Shown piece by piece: positions 1-64,000 of a stretch of DNA of 64,000 nucleotides; the stretch's first letter is position 1; each line of letters begins with the position of its first letter. Under the pieces are notes generated by a model. It did not search any database and had not been told where the DNA came from. It saw nothing but the letters and a program-made list of their open reading frames with translations. The position numbers were made by a program, and so were the translations under genes. Source of the DNA: Calothrix sp. PCC 7103 (GTDB taxonomy: Bacteria; Cyanobacteriota; Cyanobacteriia; Cyanobacteriales; Nostocaceae); contig NZ_KB217478.1 of NCBI RefSeq assembly GCF_000331305.1, positions 8,029,481 through 8,093,480 of the forward strand, read 5' to 3'.

Positions 1-1
1 A

Positions 2-295
2 CTCAACGCCGAAAAATTAATATTACTAACCGACACACGCGGAATACTCGAAAATTATAAAGACCCATCAACCCTAATTCCCAAACTTGATATTCAAGAA
101 GCGCGCGACTTAATTGGAACAGGAGTAGTAGCGGGTGGAATGATACCTAAAGTTAATTGTTGTGTTCGTTCACTTGCCCAAGGAGTAAAAGCAGCGCACA
201 TTTTAGACGGTCGCATACCCCATTCCCTACTTCTCGAAATTTTTACCGACGTTGGTATTGGCACAATGCTCGTAGGGTCACATTTTACACCTTAA
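2..295 (+). CDS. argB: Acetylglutamate kinase, C-terminal part
   Basis: The window opens inside this gene, so only about the last 97 residues are present. The reading frame gives the typical ArgB C-terminus: LTDTRGIL, then a [13 protein letters not shown] segment, then the [14 protein letters not shown] block and a TDVGIGTML end, stopping at TAA 293-295. ArgB phosphorylates N-acetylglutamate in arginine synthesis in the cytoplasm. In cyanobacteria it is inhibited by arginine and bound by PII (family knowledge, not visible here). The N-terminus lies outside the window. Confidence 0.93.
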
Positions 296-302
296 TCTTG
301 TG

Positions 303-323
303 GCACAGGCATTCTGCCTGTGC
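303..323. repeat. Short dispersed hairpin (GCACAGGC / GCCTGTGC)
   Basis: A perfect 8-bp inverted repeat with a 5-nt loop lies 8 bp after the argB stop. The same arms recur at 8984-9006, so this is a dispersed element. It may also act as the argB terminator, although no strong T-run follows. Confidence 0.6.
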
Positions 324-328
324 ATTAC

Positions 329-657
329 CTACGGGAAACTATACATAAACACAGAACCTTTTCTTGGTTGGCGCCGATAATAAGGATTATTGATTATAGT
401 TGGGTTGATAATAGTCGAGTTCCGAATATTAGGATTTACCAACACTGGGTTCACCAAGGTAGAGTCATTGACATACTGCCTGATATGTGGGCGCCTGTAT
501 ACCCTAACTTTCGGAAAATAAATGTTATTACTAGGATTGTTAGGGAATAAACTATTTGTGGAATTTTGATCAAATAAATTGGTCTTGGGTGGAAATAAAC
601 TGCGTCCTCCAAGTGGGGTTACGGGGTAAGAAGTAACATGGGGGTAAGCGTAGTTAC
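329..657 (-). pseudogene. C-terminal remnant of an Asn/Pro-rich protein, truncated by IS fragment
   Basis: The minus strand carries about 109 open codons ending in TAG at 329-331, with no start codon of its own near the 5' side. The translation looks like real protein. It has a Pro/Thr/Tyr-rich start (TPSNYAYPHVTSYPVTPLGG), an Asn-rich middle (SLFPNNPSNN), and a repeated Asn-Pro pattern (VNPVLVNPNIRNS, IINPTIINNPYY), then a basic tail ending KGSVFMYSFP. The frame runs straight into the IS-derived sequence that begins at about 656, so the gene was probably cut by that element. I did not find the missing N-terminus in this window. Function unknown; the composition suggests a secreted or surface protein. 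Confidence 0.5.
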
Positions 658-850
658 TGGGCGTTCGCTTATTTTTAGAGTCGAAGAGGAATTAATACCT
701 TGAGGGGAAAGGGATAAGAGCAATCAGCAAGCTTGGCGCCAGAATCCTGTAATCTGTAAGACATGTTCGGGTTCAGGTATGCGTATGGTAGTAAGCAAAC
801 AGGTAAAAATTAATTCTTATACTCGCAGTATAATCAGTGAGAGAATTAAG
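656..850 (+). mobile_element. IS fragment: 5' leader and first transposase codons
   Basis: This stretch matches, in inverted orientation, the sequence just upstream of and including the start of the transposase pseudogene (about 3120-3302). Shared landmarks are ACTGGGCGTTCGC at the outer edge, the GAGGGGAAAGGG block, AAGCTTGGCGCC, and a start ATGGTAGTAAGC. The match carries several substitutions. After about 11 codons a 21-bp insertion precedes GAGAGAATT, and the similarity then ends. It is the 5' end of a second copy of the element, without its body. Confidence 0.7.
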
Positions 851-5722: not shown

Positions 5723-7933
5723 TTACTTCAAATAAATTAATAAATTTAGTCCTGGAATTGTGCGTGATAGTGTCCATAAGAGTAAGGTTATATAAAGTAC
5801 TCCTAAACTCCATTGGAACCATGCCAAGCTTGATATAATTCCTGGGAGACATTCATCGCGTAAACGAATATCATTAAAGCCTAATCGCATTAAATTATTT
5901 AGACTAAAGTCGTAGTAATTTAACCAATTCCAGCGTTTGTCCCATAATATGGGCATGTATCTTTCGCGAAATGATGGGTTTCTTGGTATTACGGGCAGGC
6001 GCCCAATTAACAAGCGTAACTGACGTAATGTGCCATCTTCGGTAAAATAGGATACGTCCATTTTGTTATGAAAACGCCCTATTTGGTAAAGTCGAGCTAG
6101 TAGTATTAAGGGTATAGGTAAAATTATTAATACTAAACATCCTAGTGTAAACCAAGGCTGTTCGGCGTTGCGAAATATAGCAAGTAATCCAATAGATGTA
6201 AATATACAATAGGATGTTAATATCCAGCTTGTTTCATAACAAGTTGGAACTATTGGAACTGGACGCAGGCGCCTATATTTATCGATAAGCCAATATAATA
6301 ATCCGAAGTATGCTATTGCAATGGCGCCAACACCAAACACTAACCAAACTTGTGTACCGTAACCAGAAAGTAATAATAATACAGCAATAAATAGCCAGTT
6401 CCATGCTGTTAATATCCATCCACCAATTAATAAAGGTTCGTCAACAATAATTTGGTCACGTATTTTAATATATGTCTCAAAATCTATTTCAGGTAGTTCT
6501 AGCAATTCGCTTTGGTTCCGAAATTGTTCTTTTTTACGATGATTAATAATTCCTTTGATTTGTGTTTGTGTTAAACCTAGACTTTTTAATTTTTCTGTAG
6601 AGGCTTTATTTATATTTGTACCAAATAATCGCCGACTCAATTCTATAAATCTTAATTGCTGCTTAGTATATTCAAGCTGGTTAATGTCGCTAATTTGCTG
6701 CAACGAGCGAAAATTTTGCATTAAATTTCTTAAAACGTTTTGATTTCCTTGTAAAGAAGACACATAAAGCATTTTGCCTATTTCACCAGGATTTCCTAAA
6801 ATTTTAGCGCTATTTGAGTTAAACGCTAACCCAGACACGTTTAAATAAGCATTTCTGGCAAAAATAGCATCACTGAAGTCAGCTATATTAAGAATGCTGG
6901 CGCCTCTTAGTGTCACAGGTTGGTTAAATCTAGCTTCGCGAAACGTTACAGCTTGCTCGAATGCTGCTTCGCTTAGTAAAAGGAATTCATTAAAATGTGC
7001 TGCGGTAAATTGTACCTGACCGAGGAACCGAACCTGAGATAAATCAGCATTCCCTCCAAAGCGTGCGCGGTTAAACCTTACTAAAGAACCAAAAATCGCA
7101 TCTTTAAAGTTAACGCTAAGAGAAAAACTACTATCTTGAAAATAAACAGCTTCCTGAAATTGCGCTTGCTTTAAGTCTACTTTGTTAAAAAATATACTAT
7201 TTGTTAGCTGAATATCTTTACGAAAACTAGCATTAGAAAAGCTGACGGTACTACCAAACCGAGCTTCTGTAAAATTTACAGATTGGTTAAAAACGGCGCC
7301 TTGAGCATCAACTGGTTGAAGAAAAAATGTATTCGTAAACTGAACGGTGCCATTAAACCGCGTTTGCTGCATAATGAGTGCTGATCGAAAAACGCTCTCT
7401 ACAGTAGATATATTTGGTTCTTGACGTAATAACGAACGACAATCTTTTGCACTTGGGAATCCTATACTCAGTGATTTTAAACATATCTCGCGTAGCTGTT
7501 GCAGTTGTTCTTGCTCACTGGGGGTAAAAGTTGGAGAAATTGCTTGGGGGTAAATTGTGGTTCGCAGTCCCAAGTCGCTACCAATAAAATCACCTTGAAT
7601 TAATGAGTTGCTTAAATCTAAACCGAATGGTTTGGCGCCTGTCTTCTGTATTTCCTTTCGTAGCGTTTGATAAAATTCATCGCGAAAAGCTGCATTATCT
7701 GGCCGTAAATCAATCGTCATCTGCCGTAAATCTACGGTGGGATTACCTTCGCGTAAAATTGGGTTATGAACTCGCTGTTGCAGTATTTCTGAAGTTAGTG
7801 GAGTGCGTTCTAATTGGGATTGAGCTTGAGAAGCAGGTATATAAAATAACCCAATAAACCAGAAACTAGCGGTAAGTGCGCTGGTTAATAATATTGTTAT
7901 TATTGGATGCTGGACTTTTGTGTAGTTACTCAA
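5723..7933 (-). CDS. Pentapeptide-repeat membrane protein
   Basis: A 736-aa protein. Residues about 10-37 form a signal-anchor ending in ASQAQS. Roughly residues 85-345 carry degenerate pentapeptide repeats (A/S-x-F pattern, for example FNQSVNFTEARF and FKDAIFGSLVRF), which fold as a right-handed beta-helix in this family. About residues 440-500 read as a helix-hairpin-helix segment (LKSLGLTQTQIKGIINHRK, then LLELPEID). The C-terminal 230 residues contain four or five hydrophobic helices. The layout suggests an outward-facing or periplasmic helix domain anchored in a membrane. It stands alone, 16 bp from the next gene on the same strand, so co-transcription with the oxidoreductase is possible. 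Exact role unknown. Confidence 0.85.
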   Translation of the reverse strand: MSNYTKVQHPIITILLTSALTASFWFIGLFYIPASQAQSQLERTPLTSEILQQRVHNPILREGNPTVDLRQMTIDLRPDNAAFRDEFYQTLRKEIQKTGAKPFGLDLSNSLIQGDFIGSDLGLRTTIYPQAISPTFTPSEQEQLQQLREICLKSLSIGFPSAKDCRSLLRQEPNISTVESVFRSALIMQQTRFNGTVQFTNTFFLQPVDAQGAVFNQSVNFTEARFGSTVSFSNASFRKDIQLTNSIFFNKVDLKQAQFQEAVYFQDSSFSLSVNFKDAIFGSLVRFNRARFGGNADLSQVRFLGQVQFTAAHFNEFLLLSEAAFEQAVTFREARFNQPVTLRGASILNIADFSDAIFARNAYLNVSGLAFNSNSAKILGNPGEIGKMLYVSSLQGNQNVLRNLMQNFRSLQQISDINQLEYTKQQLRFIELSRRLFGTNINKASTEKLKSLGLTQTQIKGIINHRKKEQFRNQSELLELPEIDFETYIKIRDQIIVDEPLLIGGWILTAWNWLFIAVLLLLSGYGTQVWLVFGVGAIAIAYFGLLYWLIDKYRRLRPVPIVPTCYETSWILTSYCIFTSIGLLAIFRNAEQPWFTLGCLVLIILPIPLILLARLYQIGRFHNKMDVSYFTEDGTLRQLRLLIGRLPVIPRNPSFRERYMPILWDKRWNWLNYYDFSLNNLMRLGFNDIRLRDECLPGIISSLAWFQWSLGVLYITLLLWTLSRTIPGLNLLIYLK

Positions 7934-7949
7934 ATGCGATGCTAATCTT

Positions 7950-8948
7950 CTATGATTCGGTCAGTACGATAATTTTACCTGTGATTGAACCTGTTTCGAG
8001 TAACTCATGAGCTTTTGCTGCTTCAGATAATTTAAATTGATGACGCGCGTCAATTTTAAGCTTACCTTCATCTATCCAAATTGCACATTGTTCTAATATT
8101 TCGGCTTGATGCTGCTGCGTTTCTATCATTCCTTGTAACATGGGTGTGAGCATTAACTCTAAACTAATACGCAGGTTCCGGTTACGTGCGACTTTCCATA
8201 CAGTATTTTTATCTGGTTCCAAAATTGTGACTACATCACCATATACTCGTACTGCTGGAAAAGATTTTTGTAGAGTTTCTCCACCAACAGTGTCAAATGC
8301 TACGTCAACTCCTTCACCGTTAGTCCAGTCTAATACTGCTTTAACAAAATCGTTTTGCTTGTAGTTTATTGCTAAATCGGCGCCGAGTTCTTGAGTAAAG
8401 CGTACTTTTTCTGGTGAACTTATTGTAGTGCAAACGTTGGCGCCTTTAAGTTTGGCAAGCTGTATTGCCACATGTCCAACACCTCCAGCACCAGCATGAA
8501 TTAATACTCGTTCATTTGGCGAGAGTCTTCCTCGTTCATATAAAGCTTCCCAAGCTGTAATTAATACTAAAGGTGCCGCAGCAGCCTCTGCAAAACTAGC
8601 TTGTTTAGGCTTACGCGCAGCAAAGCGTTCGTCTACTGTTGTATATTCGGCATAATTACCTTGATGCCCACCTAATCCACCATTACAAAAATATACCTCA
8701 TCTCCGACGCGAAACTTAGTTACGTTGGCGCCTACTTCTTCCACAACACCCGCACCATCACAACCAAGAACCGCAGGCATTTTATTAGGAAAAAAAGTAC
8801 CGCGACCCCTAAGCTTAGTATCAATAGGGTTAACACCAGCAGCTTTTAGCTTAACTAATAGTTCGCTACTACCAAGAGAAGGCAATGGTAAATCTCGTAA
8901 TTGCAGCACATCAGGATTACCAGGTGCAGTCATCACAACAGCTTTCAT
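7950..8948 (-). CDS. Zinc-type alcohol dehydrogenase-like / quinone oxidoreductase
   Basis: A medium-chain dehydrogenase/reductase of 332 aa. The start at 8948 is preferred over an upstream in-frame one because GGAGG lies 5 bases before it. The GroES-like half runs from MKAVVMTAPGNPDVL through GVNPIDTKLRGRG and LGCDGAGVVEEVG. The Rossmann half has HAGAGGVGHVAIQLAK near residue 150 and NGEGVDVAFDTVGGETL after it. It lacks the structural-zinc Cys cluster, as in quinone oxidoreductase (zeta-crystallin) members that use NADPH to reduce quinones or enals. The substrate cannot be set from sequence. It is followed 16 bp later by the pentapeptide-repeat gene. Confidence 0.88.
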   Translation of the reverse strand: MKAVVMTAPGNPDVLQLRDLPLPSLGSSELLVKLKAAGVNPIDTKLRGRGTFFPNKMPAVLGCDGAGVVEEVGANVTKFRVGDEVYFCNGGLGGHQGNYAEYTTVDERFAARKPKQASFAEAAAAPLVLITAWEALYERGRLSPNERVLIHAGAGGVGHVAIQLAKLKGANVCTTISSPEKVRFTQELGADLAINYKQNDFVKAVLDWTNGEGVDVAFDTVGGETLQKSFPAVRVYGDVVTILEPDKNTVWKVARNRNLRISLELMLTPMLQGMIETQQHQAEILEQCAIWIDEGKLKIDARHQFKLSEAAKAHELLETGSITGKIIVLTES

Positions 8949-8983
8949 AATTTCCTCCAAGATGCACACAACATGTAACTGTA

Positions 8984-9006
8984 GCACAGGCTCAAGGCGC
9001 CTGTGC
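8984..9006. repeat. Second copy of the GCACAGGC hairpin
   Basis: The arms GCACAGGC and GCCTGTGC match the element at 303-323. Here the right arm includes a GGCGCC site. It lies upstream of the oxidoreductase start. Confidence 0.6.
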
Positions 9007-9106
9007 AGTACTTAATTCAACGATAAAAAATATTTTGGTTCTTTTCCGAAACCAAGCCAAGAGCAATGGTAGTACTAATTAAGTTAAACAAAACTATACT
9101 GAACTT

Positions 9107-9166
9107 CTATATGTATCCTTGGGGACTTACCCCACAAAAGCCCAGTCTTTAAAAACTGGGCTTTTT
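9107..9166 (+). ncRNA. Candidate small RNA ending in a strong terminator
   Basis: A strong terminator (AAAGCCCAGT, loop, ACTGGGCTTTTT at 9136-9166) lies between two divergent genes, so neither gene's transcript should end there. About 40 bp upstream is TATACT (9095-9100), a good -10 box. A transcript from about 9107 would hold a small hairpin (GGGG-actta-CCCC) and then the terminator, a size and two-hairpin layout like cyanobacterial Yfr-class RNAs. The -35 box is not clear. Identity is inferred, not recognised. Confidence 0.4.
9136..9166 (+). terminator. Intrinsic terminator in a divergent intergenic region
   Basis: A 10-bp stem with a 7-8 nt A/T loop is followed by CTTTTTGT. A T-rich run is also present in the opposite direction, so it could work both ways. 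Confidence 0.8.
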
Positions 9167-9345
9167 GTATGGTATTTATCGCAATATTTCCCACCAGTTA
9201 GAAATATTGAAGCTTTGGCTCATCTGTATTTTTTTAACTAAGAAAGATATTTTTCTGTTAACAAAGAATAATATAATAGCTGCTGCTCGATAATAGATGT
9301 TTCGTTCCTCAGCATGACTAGCGAGTATTACGAAATGTAACAATA

Positions 9346-9501
9346 TTGGTTGAAGAAGGCATAATTAAGCTCGGCGCCAGCTTACTTAAGTACATTGTTT
9401 TATCTGGTGACGGTTCTACCTATGATTATCGAGTAAAAGAATGTCGATTTTCTAGCTGTAAGGATTTAGAATTCTTAATGAATTTTAAATTTTATATTTG
9501 A
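9346..9501 (+). other. Possible short ORF or gene remnant
   Basis: A 51-codon frame from TTG to TGA translates to protein-like text (EEGIIKLGASLLKYIVLSG, then YDYRVKECRF). There is no ATG and no clear ribosome site, and a stop lies a few codons upstream. It could be a remnant. Nothing else is seen between the terminator at 9166 and mltA. Confidence 0.2.
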
Positions 9502-9514
9502 AGTAGGGCGTTTC

Positions 9515-10849
9515 ATGAGCATCAAGAGCGAATCTAAAGCGAAGTTTCGAGAATTAGTCAGGCCAAAGTCAGCAAAAATACTTGCTGCTGTTGCTTTAAG
9601 CTTACCTGTTTTTGTACTAACTTATGTATTGCTTATACAACCTTTGGGACGTTTAGCGCTTAGTTCACAACAATGTCAGCTAAAAAAGTGGAATTTACCT
9701 CAAGCTGCAAAACAAGTTAAAAGTCCACCAAATATATTAAAACGGCGCCCTGTACTTGTAGCTAGACCACATGTTACTTGTTGCGAGGGTGATGCTTCGT
9801 GTTTAGATAATCAAATTTGGGGTGAAAACGAACCTATTAAAGACCAAAAAGGTTTAATAGCGTCGATAGACCAAAGTTTAAAGTACTTACAATCTCCGCA
9901 AGCTGAAGCAGCATATAAAGATTATCCAGTAGCTGGTATTACTCGCGCTCGTGTAATTGCTAGCTTACAAAGATTTCGGCAGTTGGTACAAACGAGTAAA
10001 TCAGCCAAACAACTTAATGCTGCAATAAGAAATGAGTTTGTGCTTTACCAATCAATAGGTCACGATAAAAAGGGAGGGGTACTGTTTACTTCGTATTATG
10101 AACCTATATATGAAGCTAGTCGTACACGTACCACTGAATTTCGTTACCCTATTTATCGTGAACCGCCCGACTTAGACTCTTGGCCTAGACCTCATCCTAA
10201 ACGTGTTGACTTAGAAGGTGCAGATGGTTTACAAGCTTCTAAAAGTAAATTACGGGGACTAGAAATATTTTGGTTCCGCGACCGTCTTGAACCTTACATG
10301 ATGCAAATTCAAGGTTCCGCGAGACTTCATCTTACCGATGGTACTGAGACTACAGTGGGTTATGCTGCCAGCATCGCTCAAAATTATAAAAGCATTGGTA
10401 AAGCACTTGCTGACGATGGAAAATTACCCTTGGAGGGTATGACGATGCCTAAGATTTTGGATTATTTTCATAAATATCCGCAGGAATTAAATATTTATAT
10501 TCCGCGTGACCCTAGTTTTGTATTCTTTAAGGAAAATCATGGTGTTACTGCAACTGGTTCCACTCAAGCGACTCTTACGACCGACCGTTCGATTGCTACT
10601 GATAAATCACTTATGCCACCAGGCGCCCTAGCATTAATTCGTGCATACCTTCCTTTTCCTAATACTCAAGGTCAAATGGAACACCGTGTTGTTACTCGCT
10701 ATGTACTTGACCAAGACGCAGGTGGTGCCATTAAAGGTGCTGGCAGAGTTGATTACTTTGTTGGTGCAGGAAAGGTTGCAGCCGAACGTGCGGGTGTTAC
10801 TGTTGGTCACGGGCAACTATTTTATTTAATGCTTAAACCAAAAAGTTAG
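9515..10849 (+). CDS. mltA: Membrane-bound lytic transglycosylase A
   Basis: A 444-aa protein with an N-terminal membrane anchor (about residues 24-46, LAAVALSLPVFVLTYVLLI). A MltA domain starts near residue 130 and contains LFTSYYEPIYEAS and GLEIFWFRDRLEPYMMQIQGSARL. A C-terminal 3D domain carries DQDAGGAIKG and GRVDYFVGAG, where the Asp of RVDY corresponds to the known catalytic Asp, ending GHGQLFYLML. MltA cleaves the glycan strands of peptidoglycan, forming 1,6-anhydro ends. Length suits cyanobacterial members. It has its own spacer on both sides, so it is probably a single-gene unit. Confidence 0.93.
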   Translation: MSIKSESKAKFRELVRPKSAKILAAVALSLPVFVLTYVLLIQPLGRLALSSQQCQLKKWNLPQAAKQVKSPPNILKRRPVLVARPHVTCCEGDASCLDNQIWGENEPIKDQKGLIASIDQSLKYLQSPQAEAAYKDYPVAGITRARVIASLQRFRQLVQTSKSAKQLNAAIRNEFVLYQSIGHDKKGGVLFTSYYEPIYEASRTRTTEFRYPIYREPPDLDSWPRPHPKRVDLEGADGLQASKSKLRGLEIFWFRDRLEPYMMQIQGSARLHLTDGTETTVGYAASIAQNYKSIGKALADDGKLPLEGMTMPKILDYFHKYPQELNIYIPRDPSFVFFKENHGVTATGSTQATLTTDRSIATDKSLMPPGALALIRAYLPFPNTQGQMEHRVVTRYVLDQDAGGAIKGAGRVDYFVGAGKVAAERAGVTVGHGQLFYLMLKPKS

Positions 10850-11227
10850 GTAAAAAATCAAACATTGTTAGTACTATAAAAAAAATATATGATATATTTC
10901 TTCACATTTTTGTTGATATTCAACTGCATCAAAACTTGAATTAAACGTAATTATTATTGCGAGCTTCGGAACTGATGGAAATATGCTTCGTCGTTTCAAT
11001 TAACAGCAGTAACGTGTGAAGTGATTACTGTGTATTAGATTGACAAAAGCCGATAAATATGTAGATGCTTGGATGTGAAATAGTCACCCTTTAGTGGGCG
11101 CCAATCTGAAATAAGTTATTTTGGATTTGTATATAACTTACATGTAGGAATGTAGGAAAGCATTGAGAAATATCAATGCTTCTATAGACATAATAAACGT
11201 ATTTGTTTTCAATCGGGGGATTTAACT
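10850..11227. other. Intergenic region with one hairpin
   Basis: No gene seen. At 11158-11181 an AAGCATTGA / TCAATGCTT stem (9 bp, 6-nt loop) lies 46 bp before the PIN gene, possibly an attenuator or the end of an upstream transcript. One GGCGCC site is present. Confidence 0.4.
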
Positions 11228-11701
11228 GTGATTGGGATATTGGTTGATGCTGATTTAATACTCGAATTACTAATGAACAGAAACCAGCTATTAGAAGATA
11301 TTAGTGAATTATTTGACCAAGCGCAACCCTTGATAAAAATGTATGTTACAGATTTTGGATGGGAGAAAATATGCGCTTATGCAAACAGATTCCAGAATTC
11401 ACACATAGCTCAACTTGTGATTGATTGGTTGAAAGAAAAAGTTGACGTTTGTACAGTTGATAAAAATGTTCTTCAGCAAGCACGTTTATCACCTATTCAA
11501 GATTTTGAGTCAGCAGTTGAATATGCGTGTGCCATGTATCAAGAATTCTACGCAGTTGTGACTCATCGCTATCAAGATTTTGTAACGGCGCCGGAGCAAT
11601 TTTTAATTTGGTCTGTGGCTGACCTGCAAACTCGTACATCGCTTGAAGCACAATTTCAAGCGACCGTTAATTTCAGTAAAACCGAGAGGTATTCTTGTTG
11701 A
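11228..11701 (+). CDS. PIN-domain protein
   Basis: A 157-aa protein with PIN nuclease features: D7 and D9 in ILVDADLILELL, the central D92/E94 in QDFESAVEYA, and D117 in VVTHRYQDF. These are the acidic residues that bind metal in this RNase family. The GTG start at 11228 is preceded by GGGGG. PIN proteins are often toxins with a small partner just upstream. No partner gene is seen here, so it is either an orphan toxin or a housekeeping member. The last 40 residues fall outside the usual PIN core. Confidence 0.75.
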   Translation: MIGILVDADLILELLMNRNQLLEDISELFDQAQPLIKMYVTDFGWEKICAYANRFQNSHIAQLVIDWLKEKVDVCTVDKNVLQQARLSPIQDFESAVEYACAMYQEFYAVVTHRYQDFVTAPEQFLIWSVADLQTRTSLEAQFQATVNFSKTERYSC

Positions 11702-11760
11702 TGGCAATGGAGGAGGTTGTGGGGTAAATGTGAACCGTGGTTCACAAAGTTATTTGAAAT

Positions 11761-11786
11761 TGGGACGGGCAGGGATGCCCATCCCA
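11761..11786. repeat. Dispersed palindrome, GGGCAGGGATGCCC type
   Basis: An inverted repeat TGGGACGGGCA / TGCCCATCCCA, of the same family as the MITE core and the copies at 12416, 38543, 56152 and 56473. It lies between convergent genes and may also serve as a terminator. Confidence 0.65.
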
Positions 11787-11839
11787 CAATATAATGTTAT
11801 TCAGCCTACAAGATAATGGTAAATTTAGATACTTAACTT

Positions 11840-12325
11840 TTATTGGATGTCCAAATCTAGAGTATAGTTTAATGTGCCGCTGCCGCTAGTTTGTTGCGAA
11901 ATATTATTGCCTGAACCTTGTACTTCTACGCTGACCGCAGCAGTTGATGGTGAATATTGGGCTGAAATTTCAATTTTTTGCTGACCGACAGATAAATAAG
12001 GAGATAAATCTAGCTTACTACTGCTGTCGTTCAAACGCTGTATAACTTTACCATTAATGGATATTTCACCTTGCAACTGTGCGCTAGGGGCATTAATTTT
12101 TAGAATTTGAGGTTGTTTTAAATTTGCAGCACTTAGACTTAAACTATTCCTTTGGACAGATGCAGAATTTGATTGTTCAGTTCTGGTGGATGTGAATGTT
12201 TGTGTGGCGCCACTATCGCTTGATGCTTCAGAATTTATTTGACTATAAGATAAGTTGTTAGTTAATCCAGCAGTAAGACTGATAATAGACCCAACGCAAA
12301 GCGCGTAAAGAATTAGGTTTTGCAT
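11840..12325 (-). CDS. Small secreted protein, Ser-rich
   Basis: A 161-aa protein. Residues 1-27 form a signal peptide (LYALCVGSIISLTAGL). A Ser/Thr/Gln-rich stretch follows, then a beta-rich C-terminal part (LKINAPSAQLQGEISING, KLDLSPYLSVGQQKIEISAQY), ending in an SGSGTLNYTLDLDIQ tail. The C-terminal part reads like a small carbohydrate-binding or bacterial Ig-like sandwich, but I do not recognise a family. It is the last of three small exported proteins on this strand. Confidence 0.65.
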   Translation of the reverse strand: MQNLILYALCVGSIISLTAGLTNNLSYSQINSEASSDSGATQTFTSTRTEQSNSASVQRNSLSLSAANLKQPQILKINAPSAQLQGEISINGKVIQRLNDSSSKLDLSPYLSVGQQKIEISAQYSPSTAAVSVEVQGSGNNISQQTSGSGTLNYTLDLDIQ

Positions 12326-12415
12326 ATTTTTATACCAATTGTTACAAGTAAGTTATAAATATATAAACAAAATAGAAAACTTATTTTACGGGCTAAATAT
12401 TTAATTTATTGTGAA

Positions 12416-12496
12416 GCGGGCATCCCTGCCCGCCCCTAGTATAAAACGTTGAAATGTGTGATAACAATGACGCTTTTGTATAGAAACCCGGTTTCT
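12416..12496. repeat. Two dispersed palindromes
   Basis: GCGGGCAtccCTGCCCGC at 12416-12433 belongs to the GGGCATGCCC-like family. AGAAACCCGGTTTCT at 12482-12496 belongs to the second dispersed family of this window and sits directly after the stop of the next minus-strand gene. Confidence 0.65.
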
Positions 12497-12500
12497 AGAA

Positions 12501-12827
12501 TTAGTTACAGACGGTTGTAGTATTACTCGTATAAATTTGATTGCCACCTCTTGTAGAGTTCTTGCGCTGTGTAACATTACGGCATTTCATTTGATTATTG
12601 CCTCTGAAAACACGCATCCGACGATTTCTATTAATATTTTGATTTGCAGCAGGATTGACAATTACTCGTGGTACTGGCGCCGTTCTAATAAAAATGCCTC
12701 CATTTTCATCAAGCACCATCTGAACGTTACTTGTTTGAATATCTAGGTCACCAGCAGTTGCGATTCCGGCAGGCAATGCAACCATTGCAGTCAAGAACAG
12801 CGAAAACATTAATTTTTGGACAGGCAT
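12501..12827 (-). CDS. Small secreted Asn/Arg-rich protein
   Basis: A 108-aa protein from the ATG at 12827, chosen because GAGG lies 10 bases upstream; closer alternative starts overlap that site. A signal peptide (LFLTAMVALPAGIATA) is followed by an acidic beta segment (DIQTSNVQMVLDENGGIFI). Then comes an Asn/Arg/Gln-rich tail with two Cys, the last at the penultimate position (TTTVCN). It shares its size, export signal and Asn/Gln richness with the next gene upstream, so the two may work together. Function unknown. Confidence 0.7.
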   Translation of the reverse strand: MPVQKLMFSLFLTAMVALPAGIATAGDLDIQTSNVQMVLDENGGIFIRTAPVPRVIVNPAANQNINRNRRMRVFRGNNQMKCRNVTQRKNSTRGGNQIYTSNTTTVCN

Positions 12828-13020
12828 GGCGTTCATCCTCAACTTAGTAATTAGTTTTGAGTGCTATAATTTGACCAGCAGCTAGAAAATCGAAGGTATA
12901 AACTTTATTCTTCATCATTTTTCTAGACCTAATTAGTTGTGTGTTACTGGTTTCGAGTTGTTGAACAACTCGATTAACCAGATTTTTAAAAGATTATTAA
13001 ATTTATTTCTAATTTTTGAC

Positions 13021-13362
13021 TTAACGGAAATAAGGCAAAGAACAGTTAGCGTTTTGAGTCTGCCTGGTTCCTGTTGAATTAGAAACACCGCTAATATTGC
13101 CGAAGCCGACATTTCCATTACTAATACCTGTGTTTGCAGCGTTACCTTGGATTTGATTACCTCTAGCACAGAATGGATTGCTGTTTTTACCTTGGTACTG
13201 GTCTGTGTAAGTGCTGCTATCGATACCAGTAACGTTTCTTGAACCGACGTTGCCAGTTGTAATTTGAATGTTAGAAGTATTACCTTGAATTTGGTCTGCA
13301 AATGCCGCAGGCGCCATTGCAAGAGCAGCTAATAACCCTAAAGCAAATGATTTTTTTAACAT
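13021..13362 (-). CDS. Small secreted protein with two curlin-like repeats
   Basis: A 113-aa protein with a signal peptide ending AFA near residue 22 and GGAG before the ATG. The mature part has two imperfect repeats of about 43 residues. Each begins [D/N]QIQGN, continues through an N-x2-I and GNVG-x2-N-[V/I]-x-G pattern, and ends near a single Cys. Regular Gln, Asn and Gly spacing resembles curlin-type amyloid repeats, though the match is not strong enough to assign that family. It could be a surface fibre subunit or a small structural protein (inference). Confidence 0.65.
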   Translation of the reverse strand: MLKKSFALGLLAALAMAPAAFADQIQGNTSNIQITTGNVGSRNVTGIDSSTYTDQYQGKNSNPFCARGNQIQGNAANTGISNGNVGFGNISGVSNSTGTRQTQNANCSLPYFR

Positions 13363-13590
13363 GATTCATCACTCCGTTTACTGTCTTTGATTAAATATAA
13401 GCTCTTTAACTTAATATATTGGGTGCTAAAGGCTAAAAAAAGATGACTCGCCTGATTGCATAAGTTGTATCTCTATACCTAGATATTTTAACTAAAGATT
13501 TTAAGTGTGTCAAGTCTTGGTTAAAAAATCTGGGCGTAATTTTTTTTTGGTGTTACGATAAACGACTATAAGTTAGACCGTCGGAGTGCT

Positions 13591-13938
13591 GTGACTGTGA
13601 AACGGAAAGCAAAACCAAGAATAGCAATATTACGTGAAAGAGCTGGTTTGACCCAGTTAGAGTTATCACGTCTTGTCGGTGTCACCGAAAGTACCATTCA
13701 AAATTGGGAAAGCGGAAGAACTGGCTCTGATCATATTGAACGTATAGTAAAGTTTTGTAAGGCTCTTGGCTGCCAGGTAGAGGATTTAATTGAGTATGTA
13801 AGCGACTCCGAAGAAGAGAAACTGGGCAAACCTAGTTCTTTGAGTGACATCCGCACTCTTTTAGGAACAGAACAGCCTATAGGCGCCGATACTTCTAAGC
13901 AAAAAAATGCTGCTGAGGAAATAGGGGCAAGGGAATAA
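13591..13938 (+). CDS. XRE-family transcriptional regulator
   Basis: A 115-aa protein with one Cro/C1-type helix-turn-helix at residues about 9-62 (ILRERAGLTQLELSRLVG, then VTESTIQNWESGR) and an acidic, Ser-rich tail. The GTG at 13591 follows CGGAG; an in-frame GTG at 13597 is also possible. It probably binds DNA as a dimer. The target is unknown. It is divergent from the small secreted protein genes, so it may regulate them (inference). It shares a long terminator hairpin with the convergent deacetylase gene. Confidence 0.85.
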   Translation: MTVKRKAKPRIAILRERAGLTQLELSRLVGVTESTIQNWESGRTGSDHIERIVKFCKALGCQVEDLIEYVSDSEEEKLGKPSSLSDIRTLLGTEQPIGADTSKQKNAAEEIGARE

Positions 13939-13940
13939 GG

Positions 13941-14015
13941 CAACGGATGATAAACGGATGTAACGGATAGTTGATTTTAAATAACTTATCCGTTACATCT
14001 GTTGTATCCGTTGCT
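13941..14015. terminator. Long bidirectional terminator hairpin
   Basis: Arms built of repeated CAACGGATG / AACGGATGTAACGGATA pair with TATCCGTTACATCTG and TGTATCCGTTG across about 15 nt. The right arm lies inside the last codons of the convergent gene, whose C-terminus is therefore made from hairpin sequence. Confidence 0.75.
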
Positions 14016-14672
14016 AAGATTATCGATAGTGACGAACTCGTAACCCTGTTCTAGTAACTTGGGTATTAAAGCTGCTGTCGTTTCGGCGACATCTTCACCG
14101 CCGAAGTAGCCATCGTGCAAAACGATGATGGAACCATTTTGAACTTGATTTAATACTCGTTGAGTTACTGTGTTAACACCCGGTCGTACCCAGTCTTCTG
14201 GTACAACGCTCCACATAACCGGACGGTAGTCCCACTTTTTCAAAAGTTTTAAAGTATTGGGGGTAAAGAACCCATTTGGGGGTCTGACATCGCGGATAAG
14301 TTGTCCGGGTATATTACAGGCACTTTCGATAGCTGCTTGAGTTTTTTCTAAGCTGTCTTTAAGTTCTTGCGGCGAGAGCATAGGAAAGTTTCGGTGGTCG
14401 TAACCGTGTAAACCTATCCAGTGGTTACGAGCATGTACCATTTTGGCAATTTGTGGTGCCTGTTGTACACATAAACCTAACCAAAAGAAACTAGCCGGAA
14501 TTTTGTAATGGTCTAATACTTCAAGTAACTGGGGTGTGTGATCATGGTGGGGACCATCATCAAAGGTTAGAGCGATTTTTTTACAGTTTGTGTTTCCTGT
14601 CCATAGACAGTTTGGAAAACTAGGTTGGAGAACACGGTAAATTAAGGGAAATAAAGGTGCAAATTGCAACAT
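13986..14672 (-). CDS. Polysaccharide deacetylase (NodB-like)
   Basis: About 228 aa from the ATG at 14672; a TTG at 14693 is also possible. NodB-domain motifs are present: TFDDGPHHDHTP with the metal and catalytic Asp pair, LHGYDHRNF with the His ligands, RDVRPPNGFFTPN, and LHDG near the end. Enzymes of this family remove acetyl groups from chitin-like, peptidoglycan or exopolysaccharide sugars. The N-terminal 20 residues are hydrophobic, suggesting export or membrane attachment. The substrate cannot be told from sequence. The C-terminal six residues (GYNRCNG) come from the terminator hairpin. Confidence 0.88.
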   Translation of the reverse strand: MLQFAPLFPLIYRVLQPSFPNCLWTGNTNCKKIALTFDDGPHHDHTPQLLEVLDHYKIPASFFWLGLCVQQAPQIAKMVHARNHWIGLHGYDHRNFPMLSPQELKDSLEKTQAAIESACNIPGQLIRDVRPPNGFFTPNTLKLLKKWDYRPVMWSVVPEDWVRPGVNTVTQRVLNQVQNGSIIVLHDGYFGGEDVAETTAALIPKLLEQGYEFVTIDNLSNGYNRCNG

Positions 14673-14903
14673 TGAGTCCAAATTAAAAAGCAAGCCTATT
14701 AAAACTCTAGCAAAATTTTATGTCATCGGTATAGTTCGTATTTCAGTATATTTAGGGTAAGATTTCCAACCTTGTATGATTTATTAGGTATTTGGGGTTT
14801 AATAAGTTATTTAAAGATAATCCTGACGAAGTAGAAAATGTTTAATTTTATGCAGTACGATAAGAGACTCTGAGTAAGTTAGTATTTTTCACAACTGCAT
14901 GAA

Positions 14904-17900
14904 ATGAATAAAAGCTGTAACATCTCCCGGCACCGTCAAATTCCTATCGTTAAGGAAGTACATACGGCGGTGAGCGGGAGGGCTAGGTATAAAGTAAATG
15001 GTCTTCAGGGTTCGGATACTCTTAAGAAATACCTAGAGTTGAGATTGGCAGAAAACAACGATATATGTTGTGTTTCTGCCAACCCGGTAACAGGAAATAT
15101 GCTGGTAGTTTATAAACCAGCACGCAGTTCGTCGGGTCTTGCATCGCTGATTGAAAGTCTGGTTTTTGATTACCAAAAGCAAAACAAAAATTCTGTAAAT
15201 TTGGTAACAAAAAACAAGCACCAAGCTAAGAGAAAAGCAAAAAAAACACGCGAGATTGTCGGAACAAAAGCGCAATCCGTTGCACCTTGGCATTTACGTT
15301 CTGTAGAGACCGTAATTAATGAGTTGCAAACGTCAAATGTATTAGGACTATCAAGTGATTCTGCTGCTAGCAAACTGAAGAAATACGGCTTAAACACCCT
15401 ACCCCAAGCAAAACCGCGTTCTGGGTTAAGTATGTTTGTTGACCAGTTTAAATCACTACCAGTAGGACTTTTAGCAGTAGCGGCAGGAGTGTCAGTTGCT
15501 ACAGGTGGTTTGCTTGATGCTGCTGTGATTATGGGGGTTGTAGTAATCAATGCGGGGATTGGATATGCCACTGAGAGTAATTCTGAAAAAATAATTCGTT
15601 CGCTTCAAAATGTAGTTAAGCCAAGGGCAGTAGTTATTCGCGACGGTAATAGTGTTGAAATCAGCGCTACTGAAATTGTCCTCGGCGATATTATAGTTCT
15701 CAAACCTGGTAGCTATGTACCATCGGACGCACGTTTAATTGAAGCAGAGCGTTTGAGTATTGATGAGTCGGCGTTAACGGGTGAAAGTATGCCTGTTAGT
15801 AAGTCTACTGTAGCGCTTGAAGATGAGAATGTAGCTTTGGGCGACCGGGTAAACATGGTTTACATGGGTACTTTGGTGACGGGGGGACAAGGAAAAGCGG
15901 TAGTTGTCGCCACAGGTAAATATAGCGAGATGGGTAAAATTCAGGCGATGCTTGGTGAAGCTTCGACACCTGAAACCCCGATGGAAAAACAACTCGACCA
16001 AGCAGGAAGTCAGCTTGTTGTAATTAGCGGCGCCATTTGTGCTGTTGTATTTGGTATTGGTTTATTGCGTGGTAACAGTGTGCTGCAAATGCTCAAGTCA
16101 ACAATTTCGTTGGCTGTAGCAGCGGTACCAGAAGGACTGCCAACGGTCGCAACTACTACGTTAGCGCTTGGTATTGCTAACATGCGGAAGCACAACGTAT
16201 TAATCCGGCGCCTTGATGCAGTGGAAACACTGGGTTCGGTACAGACTATCTGTATGGATAAGACTGGTACTATTACAGCTAACCGCATGACGGTTGTTGA
16301 GTTGTGTGCTGATGGACGATGTATTGATGTTGCAGACGACAAGTTACGCGATGGGGATGAGTCTATTAATCCTTATAGCAACGAGCAAGTGCTGAAGTTA
16401 ATGCATGTCTTGGTACTTTGCAACGAAAGCATTATTGAAGAAAAGGAAAAGGTTAAAGAGAAAAAGGAAAACAAAGAACACAATTACACTGTAAAAGGTT
16501 CTTCAACAGAGAACGCGCTTATCGACTTAGCAATAAATGCTGGGGTGAATGTAAATAGTCTGCGCGAAAATTATCCGTTGCAGAAAATCAGTCACCGTTC
16601 GCAAGCGCGTAACTACATGGTGACGCTACATAATACTCCTGACAACAATCAAAAACTCGTTGCAGTTAAAGGTAGTCCATCTGAAGTATTAGCGCTATGT
16701 AGTCATCAACTCAAAAACGGTCAGCAAATACCTTTAACCAATGCTGATAGACAGTTAATAGAGAACGATAACGAGGACATGGCAGGTAAAGCACTGCGTG
16801 TTCTTGGAATTGCTTATTTAATTCAAGATTCGGATGAAATTAACACTGAAAGTGAATTAATTTGGTTGGGACTTGTGGGAATGGCAGACCCCATCCGCAA
16901 AGGTGTCAAGGAATTGATGGGAGATTTCCACTCAGCAGGTATCAACACCGTAATGATTACTGGGGATCAAAGTCCAACAGCTTATGCTATTGGTAAAGAA
17001 TTAAATCTTAGCCAAGGCAAACAGCTAGAAATTCTTGACTCAACCCATCTCGAACAAGTTGACCCAGAAGTTGTCAAAGGACTGTGCGACCGAGTAAATG
17101 TTTTTGCACGTATTAGTCCTGCGAACAAGTTGCAAATTGTCCAAGCACAGCAAAGCACAGGTAAAATAGTAGCAATGACCGGGGATGGAATAAACGATGC
17201 TCCCGCGCTCAAAGCTGCTAATGTCGGTATTGCAATGGGGCATAGTGGCACCGATGTTGCCCGTGAAGTTGCGGATATTATCCTCGAAGACGACAACCTT
17301 GAAACCATGATTATAGCCGTTAGTCATGGACGTACAATTTACAACAACATTCGTAAATCTGTTCACTTTTTACTATCAACCAACACCAGTGAAATCATGG
17401 TGATGCTTGCCGCTACTGCTGCTGGTATTGGTGAACCAATGACAGCTATGCAGTTACTGTGGTTGAACTTAGTAACAGATATCTTCCCAGCACTTGGACT
17501 TGCGATGGAAGCTCCAGAACCAGATGTATTACTGGCACCACCTCGTGACCCATCTGAACCAATTATCAAAAATTCCGACTTCCGACGCATTGTCGGAGAG
17601 TCAGCGATAATGTCAGCAAGTGCTTTGGGCGCCTATGGTTATGCTATTAACCGTTATGGTATAGGAGCAACTGCGAGTACCATCGGCTTTATGAGTTTAA
17701 CAATGGCACAGTTAATGTACGCGCTCAGTTGCCGTTCGCAAACCCACAGCATATTTAGCGGTAAGAGACTACCACAAAACAAATATCTAAATATTGCCTT
17801 GGGTGGTTCGTTCGCGCTACAAATCGCCGCTGCAACTGTACCTGGACTCAAAGGATTGTTGCAAATCGCACCAATTAACCTATTAGATATGGTGGTTATT

Positions 17901-18089: not shown

Positions 18090-18092
18090 TAT

Positions 18093-18123
18093 ATAGTAAG
18101 GCCGTCAGTGACGGCCTTACTAT
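18093..18123. terminator. Bidirectional terminator hairpin
   Basis: A perfect 15-bp stem (ATAGTAAGGCCGTCA and its complement) with a single-base centre lies between two convergent genes and touches the stop codon of the minus-strand one. Confidence 0.85.
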
Positions 18124-18809: not shown

Positions 18810-18918
18810 GTAGTAATTTTATCTTTTTTCAAAATTTTACAATATTCTAGCTTTTGCATTAGCTAACCAGTTTAGTGGGTATTGTATTATAGATATAAAG
18901 TTATAATGTTGAAATTAC

Positions 18919-19549: not shown

Positions 19550-19593
19550 TCTTTAGACTTTACAAATAATATAAGATTTCAGCTTGAAAACTT

Positions 19594-60195: not shown

Positions 60196-60207
60196 TATGG
60201 GAAGACT

Positions 60208-60298
60208 GGGACTATGCAACCGCAACGCCTAAATTTTGTCAGGATCGGAAGATAGCAGCAATACGGGATGCTTGTAGTAGGCGTAGACCCCGGTCCCC
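60208..60298 (+). ncRNA. ffs: Signal recognition particle RNA (small, 4.5S type)
   Basis: The conserved SRP RNA hairpin core is present: GTCAGGATCGGAAGATAG, the GCAGCA asymmetric loop, and ATACGGGATGCTTG. The ends pair (GGGAC with GTCCC, CGCCT with AGGCG). Length about 91 nt, as in bacteria with a small SRP RNA. It forms the ribosome-bound targeting particle with Ffh. An A-run follows but no clear terminator hairpin. Confidence 0.9.
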
Positions 60299-60338
60299 AA
60301 AAAAAATTTTATATTAAATACAAAAATAAAAGTCAGTA

Positions 60339-61309: not shown

Positions 61310-61358
61310 TGAGTTGTGTTTAGGTTATTATATTAAATTATGTTAAGCAGTATTTAGT

Positions 61359-61784
61359 ATGAGTAACTTATCACCTGAGATAACAACACAGTCTATTGAA
61401 GAGGCGCCAATTCAAGCAGTAAAATATGGTGAGCGTGAAATTGCTGAGGGTCAGTTAATTACGTTCCCGAATCCGCGTGTAGGTAGACGGTATAATATTA
61501 ATATTACTTTGCCAGAATTTACGTGTAAATGTCCGTTTTCTGGCTATCCTGATTTTGCCACTATTTATATTAGCTACATTCCTGATACTAAAGTGGTGGA
61601 GTTGAAAGCGCTGAAACTCTATATCAATAGTTATCGCGATAGGTATATTTCTCACGAGGAGTCGGCAAATTTAATTCTTGATGATTTTGTTGCTGCTTGT
61701 GACCCTTTGGAGGTAACTGTTAAAGCTGATTTTACTCCACGTGGTAATGTTCATACGGTTGTTGAAGTTAAGCATACAAAGTAA
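61359..61784 (+). CDS. queF: NADPH-dependent 7-cyano-7-deazaguanine reductase
   Basis: A 141-aa type I QueF. The catalytic Cys is C58 in TCKCPFSGYPDFA. The NADPH-binding QueF motif ELKALKLYINSYRD follows, with the conserved Glu and Lys, and HEESANLILDDF near residue 107. It reduces preQ0 to preQ1 in queuosine synthesis for tRNA. The fold is a tunnel-type T-fold. Its downstream terminator is shared with the LRV protein gene. Confidence 0.93.
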   Translation: MSNLSPEITTQSIEEAPIQAVKYGEREIAEGQLITFPNPRVGRRYNINITLPEFTCKCPFSGYPDFATIYISYIPDTKVVELKALKLYINSYRDRYISHEESANLILDDFVAACDPLEVTVKADFTPRGNVHTVVEVKHTK

Positions 61785-61795
61785 TGAGTGCGCTC

Positions 61796-61845
61796 GTGCG
61801 CTCGTGCTGAGTAAAGTAAAAATTTACTACTCAGCACGAGCGCAC
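61796..61845. terminator. 18-bp perfect stem between convergent genes
   Basis: GTGCGCTCGTGCTGAGTA and its exact complement at 61828-61845 enclose a 14-nt loop. The right arm ends one base before the stop codon of the minus-strand gene. A second partial CGCTCGTGC precedes the left arm. Confidence 0.85.
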
Positions 61846-63975
61846 TTAAAAAGCTTTTGCTGCTGCACGCACGATACGATTTGCGTCTTCTGTTAGGAGT
61901 TTGCGAATCTGTTGCGGTGTGTTGGGGTTTGTTGCTACTGCGTATCTTTCTAACCAGGATGATGAGCGATGGTGTTTTACCAGTAGGTCGCTTGGCGCCT
62001 GATGGTGTAGTAATATAAAAAAGTTTGATAGTGAAGGGTAAGAGGTAGTAGTAATAAATTTTTCTATATATGGTTGGCATTGCTCTGGGTAATGTTGAAT
62101 TAGAGATTTTACTGCTGCAAGATGTGTTAGATTATTTGATTTAGGGTTATTGGCAAGCATTTCTAGTACGTTTGGTGGAGTGTTGGAGTTTTTGGCAACT
62201 GCTAATTTTACAGAGATATGTTCGTCTGTTGCTAACTTTTCTAGCAAAGTGACGGGAGCGTTGCTTTTACTGCGATTTAATTTGTCTTGCTTTTCAGGAG
62301 TGTCAAAGACAATCATTGCTGAATTCGTGTTCAGTGCTACAGCTTCTTTGATTGTTACCCATTGACTTTGTGCTTGTTTTATGAGTAATTGACTTGATGC
62401 ATTCAGATTTTGCACTGCTTGCCATTGCTGTAAAAACTCGGTGTGTGGATGATTTTTTGTTTCGAGTAACCCAACGAGTGCTGAAGAACGCACATCTTGG
62501 TTTTTATCTTGCAAGAGTTTTTCTCGCACTTCTGGTGGTAGATTCGGATTTCGCGCTACTAACCGACGCAAACGTACTGATTGACTTAATGCAAATTTTG
62601 ATGCGATAGATTCGGGTATATTTGGATGTCGTGCTAAGGCAATTTGCATTTCAAGTGTGTTGATTGTGGCACATTTTTCTAGAAGATAGGCAGGGATATC
62701 TGAGTGTATCGTCATTTGCCGACATATATTTTGAATCGATAGTAAATACACTTGGTAGCTATCGCTCGGCGCCAGTTCAAGTAAAATTTCGATAGGGGTA
62801 TTAGGATTTGCGACAATTGAAATATTGTCTTGGCAAGTTGAAGAATTGGAGTATAGGGTGAGTGACTTTGTTTGACGGAATATTATTGCCCTAGCTTTTA
62901 CCCAATCGACTTGATCTGTTTCTAACTGCGTTAACACATCATCAGGGGTGTTAGGATTTTCGGCAACTGCACACCGAACGTTATTATCTTCATCGGTTGC
63001 CAATTTTCTCAAAATCTCAATTGGGGTTTTAAGATTGTACGCTACATGTTGACGCACCATATATTCGCCATCGTTAGCTAACTGTGCTAGTAAGGTTTCT
63101 GATACTCTAGAGCTTGCTGCAACATTATTACGAACGTAAAAATCTTTATCGTTTGCCAAATACGTTAATAGTTCAATTGAGGTGTTGGGATTTTTAATTA
63201 CTTCTACACGTACATAACAATCTGCATCCCGTGCGAGTAGTTCTAAAATTGCTGGTGTCGCATTGGGGTGCTTGGCAATATCTTGACGCTGGTAGCATTT
63301 GTAGTTGTTCAGCATTCTTACTAATAGCCATGCTGGAGTTATGGGGTTACGAACTACTGCATTGCAAACTCCTAAGCGTTTATCTTCTATAAGTATTTCC
63401 AACACTTCTGTAGGAACGCTTTTGTTACTGGCAACTGCCGCACGCACTTTCCACGATTTGTTATAGGCAAGTTTTACTAATATTTCGCGAGGTGTGTTTG
63501 GGTGAGATGCTACACCCGTTCGCGTATACTCCCAGTCACGTTTTACAATTTCGCTTAAAGCGGCGCCATTCGTATCAGGATTTTGAATTGCGGCTTCGTA
63601 CTCGTAAAATAATTTGTAGATAGCATTTGGAGTACTGGGATTTTGGAAAACAGTTTGACGTACCCACGCATCATCATCACCCGCAAGCTGTTCTAAAAGA
63701 TGAACGGGAGTATTTAAATTATTGGCAATTGCTACACGCATTTTTTTTGTTGCTGTTTTTGGTTTTAACAGCGCTTCGAGAATCTCTGGAGGAGTATCAG
63801 GGTTACGGGCTATTTGTATTAACGTATTACGATGTAATCCCATCAAGAAAGCTTGGGGAATAATGCCGAGTTGCCACAATCTATACTCAGAAGTTTCATC
63901 GTGCAATATATTATCTTTGACTAACTGGTGTTTTTGAACCACCGCAAAAGCTGCTTCTTGCCATCCAGCTTTCAT
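61846..63975 (-). CDS. Large LRV/HEAT-like repeat protein
   Basis: At least 709 aa, almost all made of about 24-residue repeats in the pattern x-N-P-N-T-P-x2-L-x2-L-A-x-D-x3-V-R-x-A-V-A (for example VAENPNTPDDVLTQLETD). These resemble the leucine-rich-repeat-variant/HEAT family, which builds curved scaffolds for protein binding. There is no catalytic domain, signal peptide or membrane segment. The ATG at 63975 follows AGGGGA, a good ribosome site, but the frame stays open to the window edge, so an earlier start outside is possible. Partners unknown. Confidence 0.82.
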   Translation of the reverse strand: MKAGWQEAAFAVVQKHQLVKDNILHDETSEYRLWQLGIIPQAFLMGLHRNTLIQIARNPDTPPEILEALLKPKTATKKMRVAIANNLNTPVHLLEQLAGDDDAWVRQTVFQNPSTPNAIYKLFYEYEAAIQNPDTNGAALSEIVKRDWEYTRTGVASHPNTPREILVKLAYNKSWKVRAAVASNKSVPTEVLEILIEDKRLGVCNAVVRNPITPAWLLVRMLNNYKCYQRQDIAKHPNATPAILELLARDADCYVRVEVIKNPNTSIELLTYLANDKDFYVRNNVAASSRVSETLLAQLANDGEYMVRQHVAYNLKTPIEILRKLATDEDNNVRCAVAENPNTPDDVLTQLETDQVDWVKARAIIFRQTKSLTLYSNSSTCQDNISIVANPNTPIEILLELAPSDSYQVYLLSIQNICRQMTIHSDIPAYLLEKCATINTLEMQIALARHPNIPESIASKFALSQSVRLRRLVARNPNLPPEVREKLLQDKNQDVRSSALVGLLETKNHPHTEFLQQWQAVQNLNASSQLLIKQAQSQWVTIKEAVALNTNSAMIVFDTPEKQDKLNRSKSNAPVTLLEKLATDEHISVKLAVAKNSNTPPNVLEMLANNPKSNNLTHLAAVKSLIQHYPEQCQPYIEKFITTTSYPSLSNFFILLHHQAPSDLLVKHHRSSSWLERYAVATNPNTPQQIRKLLTEDANRIVRAAAKAF

Positions 63976-64000
63976 TTCCCCTATCCAGTTGACATGTAAC

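Follow-up and report, generated by a model that had tools for sequence, protein, structure and literature searches.

The stretch analyzed here, called the window below, is a segment of 64,000 nucleotides from Calothrix PCC 7103 (G000:C7:8029481-8093480; the genome, G000, comprises 11,584,393 bp in 12 contigs). Its prominent feature is the palindrome GGCGCC. Counting each palindrome once, we found 99 sites with a mean spacing of 645 bp, against 3.38 sites expected from the base composition (GC 38.8%), a 29-fold excess. The sites are present both within and between genes: 75 are in the 50.0 kb of open reading frames (ORFs; 1.50 per kb) and 24 in the 14.0 kb outside them (1.71 per kb). In the ORFs the commonest coding phase is that of Gly-Ala (40/75). 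The usual cyanobacterial palindrome, highly iterated palindrome 1 (HIP1, GCGATCGC), does not occur in the window, and neither does CGATCG. An earlier note made from the letters of the window alone had counted about 99 GGCGCC sites, one per about 650 bp where chance would give about three, had placed them in and between genes, and had found no copy of the usual palindrome; all of this was borne out. As shown below, the enrichment is a genus-wide trait.

The first bases of the sites are at window positions 370, 490, 735, 1094, 3218, 3670, 3824, 4601, 4770, 4948, 5595, 5998, 6268, 6323, 6899, 7295, 7634, 8379, 8439, 8727, 8996, 9373, 9744, 10622, 11097, 11587, 12206, 12676, 13310, 13882, 16029, 16207, 17628, 17901, 18351, 18573, 19250, 20072, 20712, 21872, 22589, 23324, 24934, 25295, 25425, 28970, 29753, 29982, 32035, 32614, 33651, 34244, 36026, 36490, 36516, 37648, 38050, 38128, 38398, 39111, 41244, 41516, 41674, 43177, 43465, 44492, 45074, 45326, 47204, 47275, 47672, 50018, 50917, 51191, 51362, 52214, 53549, 53711, 53842, 54484, 54729, 55801, 56323, 57002, 57685, 57697, 57856, 58015, 58054, 58416, 59005, 59371, 59599, 60106, 60650, 61403, 61994, 62768 and 63562. 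The window also encodes a bacterial small signal recognition particle RNA (60203-60299, + strand; Rfam RF00169, 54.6 bits), which contains no GGCGCC.

The whole genome carries 17,704 GGCGCC sites, one per 654 bp or 1,528 per Mb, which is near the one per 1000 nucleotides of alternate HIPs. HIP1 is represented by 163 sites (14.1 per Mb), so its density is not normal elsewhere in the genome either. The reversed word CCGCGG, found 8 times in the genome, is a poor control since it is itself avoided here. Markov expectations were obtained for a 594-kb sample composed of the window and 29 other stretches, from which three HIP1-rich stretches (L030, L034, L036) and one from contig C10 (L048) were excluded. 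The 1,031 GGCGCC sites of the sample exceed the expectation from base composition 34 times, that of the dinucleotide Markov model 21 times and that of the trinucleotide model 23 times, which extends the excess proposed in the note to the genome. The sample is somewhat denser (1,736 per Mb) than the genome; the excluded stretches have 19, 30, 15 and 52 sites per 20 kb, respectively, and their inclusion would leave the result unchanged. One 20-kb stretch, G000:C7:3700001-3720000 (L038), has 72 sites, about twice the mean.

No longer consensus was found around GGCGCC at ten flanking positions of the 1,031 sites, both strands being read: the information did not exceed 0.063 bits, the most informative feature being a mild avoidance of G at position -1. 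The hexamer itself is thus the unit, as the note had stated. Strand asymmetry of the Chi kind is excluded, the word being its own reverse complement. In the same sample GATC is found 236 times against 2,081 expected (about 11%), the palindromes CCGCGG, CCATGG, CGTACG, GTCGAC, GTGCAC and TTCGAA are absent, and CGCGCG is about 4-fold over the dinucleotide model.

GGCGCC and HIP1 were counted in 217 genomes of the family. Seven of them form the genus as defined by the genome collection: Calothrix PCC 7103, Dulcicalothrix desertica PCC 7102 (G060), HK-06 NIES-2101 (G061), NIES-4105 (G062), the metagenome-assembled genomes C42_A2020_038 (G063) and FI2-JRJ7 (G064), and Calothrix PCC 7716 (G065). According to the NCBI taxonomy, D. 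desertica belongs to Dulcicalothrix and PCC 7103 to Calothrix, and both genera to Calotrichaceae. All seven have 7,475-20,380 GGCGCC sites (1,150-1,711 per Mb) and a HIP1 density of 3.6-22.6 per Mb; the replacement of HIP1 by GGCGCC suggested from the window therefore applies to the genus. In the other 210 genomes (55 genera) GGCGCC reaches at most 1,053 sites, about 111 per Mb, and HIP1 is present at no less than about 200 per Mb in 206 of them. The four exceptions (G182, G184, G191 and G194) are HIP1-poor and not enriched in GGCGCC; in G194, 80 kb of sequence showed no word in the place of HIP1.

A class-wide scan of 388 genomes, with family f16 set aside because its control word was also high, found more than 1,000 GGCGCC per Mb only in G000 and G435. 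The latter belongs to another family (54% GC) and has 9,489 sites in 3.8 Mb, against 304-343 in three genomes of its own genus. Its pattern is AGCGCC-led, AGCGCC and CGGCGCCG being enriched in 75 kb (L221-L225). It may be an alternate HIP that arose independently, or the genome may be misplaced. Nothing was seen in checks of G561 and G448, made on 5 and 10 kb, respectively.

Losses of the sites were followed in about 90 kb of aligned columns from five close genomes with 93-94% identity to G000. Of 155 GGCGCC sites inferred to be ancestral, 79 losses occurred in a single genome, and 55 of these were changes of the third base (C3) to T, or the complement. C-to-T change at C3 amounted to 54/302, compared with 84/1,296 at other GCG cytosines (about 2.7 times, p=5e-9), and other changes at C3 to 1/302. 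The simple reading of this 5-methylcytosine-like signature is deamination of 5-methylcytosine (m5C) at C3. The same change was seen at C6 in 11/291 and at C5 in 3/299 cases. C5-to-T, the rarest C-to-T loss, would keep a GRCGYC site and remove one G-m5C; its rarity agrees with the mismatch-repair model in Elhai 2015 (PMC4390886), which requires methylation at C3 and notes the methylated position as unknown for the GrCGyC specificity. The product of C3 decay, GGTGCC, is the only word one base away from GGCGCC whose observed-to-expected ratio (O/E) exceeds that of both controls in each of the three genomes sampled from the genus (0.82-1.42 against 0.32-0.53 in the two control genomes).

Conservation over longer distances was analyzed by comparing G000 with G062 and G063 (13-18% divergence, alignments of 34-38 kb). 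GGCGCC was conserved at 57/75 sites to G062 and 40/65 to G063, compared with 39% and 29%, respectively, for hexamers with five G or C; in both comparisons it also exceeded hexamers with four. Where a Gly-Ala pair was conserved and the protein thus unchanged, GGCGCC was retained in 36/45 and 24/30 cases, compared with 10/22 and 6/17 for other codon pairs. Outside ORFs the numbers are small (19/20, 14/20, 3/5 and 1/3).

The genome of PCC 7103 has fifteen PF00145 matches, two of which are one gene. In the genus, 74 loci, with a few short PF00145 matches left out, yielded 60 proteins that passed a motif filter; 14 loci gave none, some being second views of the same gene, and the enzymes dropped include L014, L055, L130 and L131. 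Clustering of the 60 proteins gave two clusters present in all seven genomes, the L005 and L010 groups. L005 is located at G000:C7:8004469-8005407 (+ strand), about 24 kb upstream of the window and outside it, and has the catalytic motifs. The family-wide protein searches scored 7 or 10 first-look candidates per genome, and absences in them are soft. A homologue of L005 was found in 7/7 genus genomes (81-100% identity) and, at E up to 1e-30, in 58 of the other 210, with identity up to 72%. Its neighbourhood is fixed in all seven, where it lies between a GHL10/SLH-type gene and a RuBisCO-like gene; Pfam names were taken from the G000 and G064 genes, and the other genomes were assigned by like N-termini. 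The G061 copy is split over two contig ends, and the SLH-type ORF of G064 is short. In a tree of 29 sequences that passed the motif filter, out of 50 requested, six syntenic genus copies and a second, non-syntenic G061 copy form one clade with local support of 0.999.

Outside the genus, homologues of L005 often adjoin a RE_HindVP nuclease, which ties the group to GRCGYC, the sequence that we take to be the HindVP specificity. From this association the L005 group is predicted to be a GRCGYC-specific m5C methyltransferase. A HindVP-type nuclease was found in none of the seven genus genomes, against 43 of the other 210. Other enzymes were considered as well. L001/L002 were rejected as the GGCGCC enzyme with one of the pair beside a TdeIII-type nuclease, and L011 was rejected with its position beside an Eco29kI-type nuclease. 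The L010 group, present in 7/7 genus genomes and in one of the five HIP1-rich relatives examined, may be an alternative candidate, and so may an N4-methylcytosine enzyme of the PF01555 family, of which matches of similar size and score are found in all seven genomes.

The second enzyme of interest is the methyltransferase that accompanies HIP1. A DmtC-type query was chosen because it belongs to a cluster common to four of the five HIP1-rich relatives; the label DmtC rests on this phyletic pattern and on Elhai's description. At E up to 1e-60 it matched none of the seven genus genomes and at least 204 of the other 210. The fifth HIP1-rich relative, G096, has a divergent DmtC-type enzyme, 41% identical to the query, which the family search missed; 204 is therefore a lower bound. 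Among the PF00145 loci fetched from the genus no DmtC-type enzyme was found, the best match being 33% identical. Judged by gene content, one methyltransferase appears to have been lost in the genus lineage and another retained in the absence of the partner nuclease.

We consider it likely that methylated GGCGCC, as an alternate HIP, took over after the loss of the DmtC-type enzyme. In the ancestor of the genus, the DmtC-type m5C methyltransferase associated with HIP1 would have disappeared, and an m5C methyltransferase of the GRCGYC type would have remained, unaccompanied by its restriction enzyme. The remaining methyltransferase most likely acts on the first C, giving GG-m5C-GCC, and the methylated word would have acquired the role, or the by-product status, held by HIP1 in the relatives. 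The sites would decay mainly by deamination of that methylated C to T, and selection or methylation-linked repair would keep GGCGCC above the level of comparable sequence. The most likely reason for this upkeep would be the use of the dense G-m5C mark in mismatch repair, as in Elhai's model, which would account both for the protection of C5 and for the change after DmtC loss. The parts of this explanation given directly by the analysis are the clade-wide presence, the scarcity of HIP1, the lack of a DmtC-type match, the fixed enzyme neighbourhood, the C3 decay and the excess conservation; we infer the enzyme specificity, the methylation itself, the order of events and the role in repair.

A number of observations weigh against this explanation. 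Other hexamers of three G and three C are also well conserved (51/80 to G062 and 45/71 to G063) and toward G063 they are level with GGCGCC, so that part of the GGCGCC excess may be due to GC-rich context. Among the five close genomes, 44 GGCGCC sites are held by four and 9 by one, compared with 127 and 367 for 60 random hexamers with four G or C; this pattern points either to sites being strongly maintained or to an ongoing net loss. One-step gains of GGCGCC were few (2 seen, 1.1 expected). Spacing above 50 bp is random (coefficient of variation 1.028, simulated 1.033), which speaks against local feedback at one site per kb, and a resident prophage carries 4.2 sites per kb; because of these two findings the density set point of Elhai's model is not supported. 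The even spacing that such feedback would produce was not seen, and only gaps below 50 bp were rarer than random: pairs this close make up 4.5%, half of the 9.1% under random placement. Since the seven genomes belong to a single clade, the gene changes that co-occur in them may go back to one event and not seven.

The 58 genomes outside the genus with an L005 homologue and no GGCGCC enrichment show that the enzyme alone is not sufficient and is at most necessary. The note had named a methyltransferase or a repair process as a likely cause. For the methyltransferase this stood in so far as a fitting m5C enzyme is present in 7/7 genomes and the mutation spectrum points to methylation at C3; as a full cause it did not stand, given these 58 genomes. 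The repair process is a putative cause. The median GGCGCC density is 0.74 per Mb in the 41 of them with a HindVP match, counting any match including fragments and that of G185, which is below the curated cut-off, and 6.1 per Mb in the 17 without; one of the 58, G055, has only a distant methyltransferase match (32-36%). A DmtC-type match is present in 15 of the 17. The remaining two, G079 and G097 (the latter with its homologue in two pieces), have neither match, and in both HIP1 is high and GGCGCC low, with 6,883 and 144 sites, respectively, in G079, and 4,817 and 6 in G097. These are either counter-examples or search or assembly gaps, and the DmtC absences there are not firm.

The prophage (G000:C7:2451000-2465000, L027, analyzed together with L307) has 4.2-4.4 GGCGCC per kb, almost threefold the average of the genome, and GATC is absent from the 21.8 kb analyzed. 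According to PHROGs it encodes tail, helicase, Rha/anti-repressor and phage methyltransferase genes, and the helicase is identical to one on IMGVR_UViG_2507262048_000001. Residual HIP1 is clustered in three stretches of contig C7, near 0.65, 2.10 and 2.95 Mb: L030 (3781-12421), L034 (7894-12400) and L036 (2829-18624). The L030 cluster has 8 HIP1 and no GGCGCC in 8.6 kb, against 1.67 GGCGCC per kb outside it; the L036 cluster is mixed, with 10 GGCGCC inside. These clusters look like DNA recently acquired from HIP1-type cyanobacteria.

The enrichment could alternatively be an epiphenomenon, in which methylation-linked repair makes and restores GGCGCC with no benefit to the cell, and sites would seem conserved because they are made anew after loss. 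The random spacing, the prophage being denser in the word than its host and the similar density in and outside ORFs are in line with this. Besides GGTGCC, five of the eight one-base variants (AGCGCC, CGCGCC, TGCGCC, GCCGCC and GTCGCC) are lower in O/E than both controls, as if converted, a weak sign as their expectation is inflated by GGCGCC itself. Re-creation of sites agrees poorly with the scarcity of gains and with the distribution over the five close genomes, where 9 sites are confined to one genome and 44 are shared by four, and we regard the epiphenomenon as possible but rather unlikely.

GGCGCC could also be a recognition mark for DNA uptake, self/non-self discrimination or interplay with phages, and not for repair. 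The probable acquired stretch with HIP1 and no GGCGCC and the GGCGCC-rich, GATC-free prophage would fit such a mark. The flanks lack the longer or asymmetric consensus that is typical of uptake sequences, and the genus has no HindVP-type nuclease, which makes this role improbable. Still less probable is an overshoot of very-short-patch repair, where a Vsr-like nuclease would mend T:G in GGTGCC to C:G and so enrich GGCGCC. The Vsr protein of E. coli acts this way on CCWGG, and such an overshoot would be expected to deplete the T form. GGTGCC is not depleted in the three genus genomes sampled, and C3-to-T is the commonest loss. In favour of it, GGCGCC looks like the m5C target of a solitary methyltransferase, and an enzyme of that kind can be tied to a Vsr-like protein, as in the account of Caulobacter ScmA/VsrA in PMC12907096. 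Composition, codon usage or repeats, to which the common Gly-Ala phase might point, were rejected as a source of the count with next to no probability left, by the excess over the Markov models, the similar density outside ORFs, the lack of a flanking consensus and the finding that none of the 210 other family genomes is enriched in this way.

Returning to a takeover by methylated GGCGCC, the function of HIP1 has been open since its description in 1995. A genus with a swapped word, a visible methyltransferase change and HIP1-bearing relatives constitutes a natural experiment. The swap suggests that no particular word is required and that what counts may be the methylated context. Going further, and tentatively, a dense G-m5C mark might be needed or inevitably built and its carrier word be interchangeable: upon loss of the DmtC-type enzyme in the ancestor, a methyltransferase formerly part of a restriction-modification system would have been recruited, and GGCGCC would have replaced GCGATCGC throughout the genome, a change that has lasted as long as the genus. 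If true, this would overturn the case made in print for HIP1 as the only lasting word and for alternates as short-lived. The contrast between GGCGCC and HIP1 also offers an inexpensive means of tracing DNA that was taken up from HIP1-type cyanobacteria.

Of the known systems, Caulobacter ScmA with VsrA, as outlined in PMC12907096, likewise involves an m5C enzyme that appears to be solitary and has thousands of targets, and differs from the present case in that GGTGCC is not depleted here. The HindVP-type GRCGYC restriction-modification systems of the family share a homologous methyltransferase; in the genus, however, their nuclease is unmatched and one of the four GRCGYC words is enriched, not avoided. 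HIP1 with DmtC/DmtA (PMC4390886) is likewise a GC-rich palindrome that occurs about once per kb, within genes as well as between them, and is linked to orphan methyltransferases, whereas GGCGCC is a different word with a different methyltransferase.

The closest system is the alternate HIP of PCC 7103 itself, known since Elhai 2015 (PMC4390886). For this strain that paper already reports that no 6-mer in 97 genomes is more over-represented than GGCGCC, that HIP1 stands at 14 per Mb and GATC at 16% of its expected frequency, and that the gene of the CGATCG m5C methyltransferase is partly deleted, so that the word, the HIP1 density, the GATC depletion and the methyltransferase loss are the same as here. 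It also lists GrCGyC nucleases and two GrCGyC methyltransferases from separate branches, which probably correspond to L005 and L006. The top 8-mer CAGGCGCC is given there as 159 per Mb and was about 200 per Mb in our 594-kb sample, which is denser than the genome, so the values do not match exactly. The nickase recognizing G-m5C, on which the GmeC-dependent mismatch repair of that paper relies, is described there as hypothetical. The data on GGCGCC in that paper come from one genome and 19 kb of Calothrix D253, and alternate HIPs are described as sporadic and not in clades, an argument used for selection on HIP1. With more genomes, 7/7 in the genus, this description fails for GGCGCC. No later paper on GGCGCC as a clade-wide HIP was found in the open-access literature, subscription journals being mostly outside its scope. 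Compared with Elhai 2015, the present analysis adds the genus-wide extent, a candidate enzyme whose gene neighbours are constant, the pattern of decay at C3 and the conservation tests; what is new is a stable swap at the level of a genus, carrying the signature of C3 decay.

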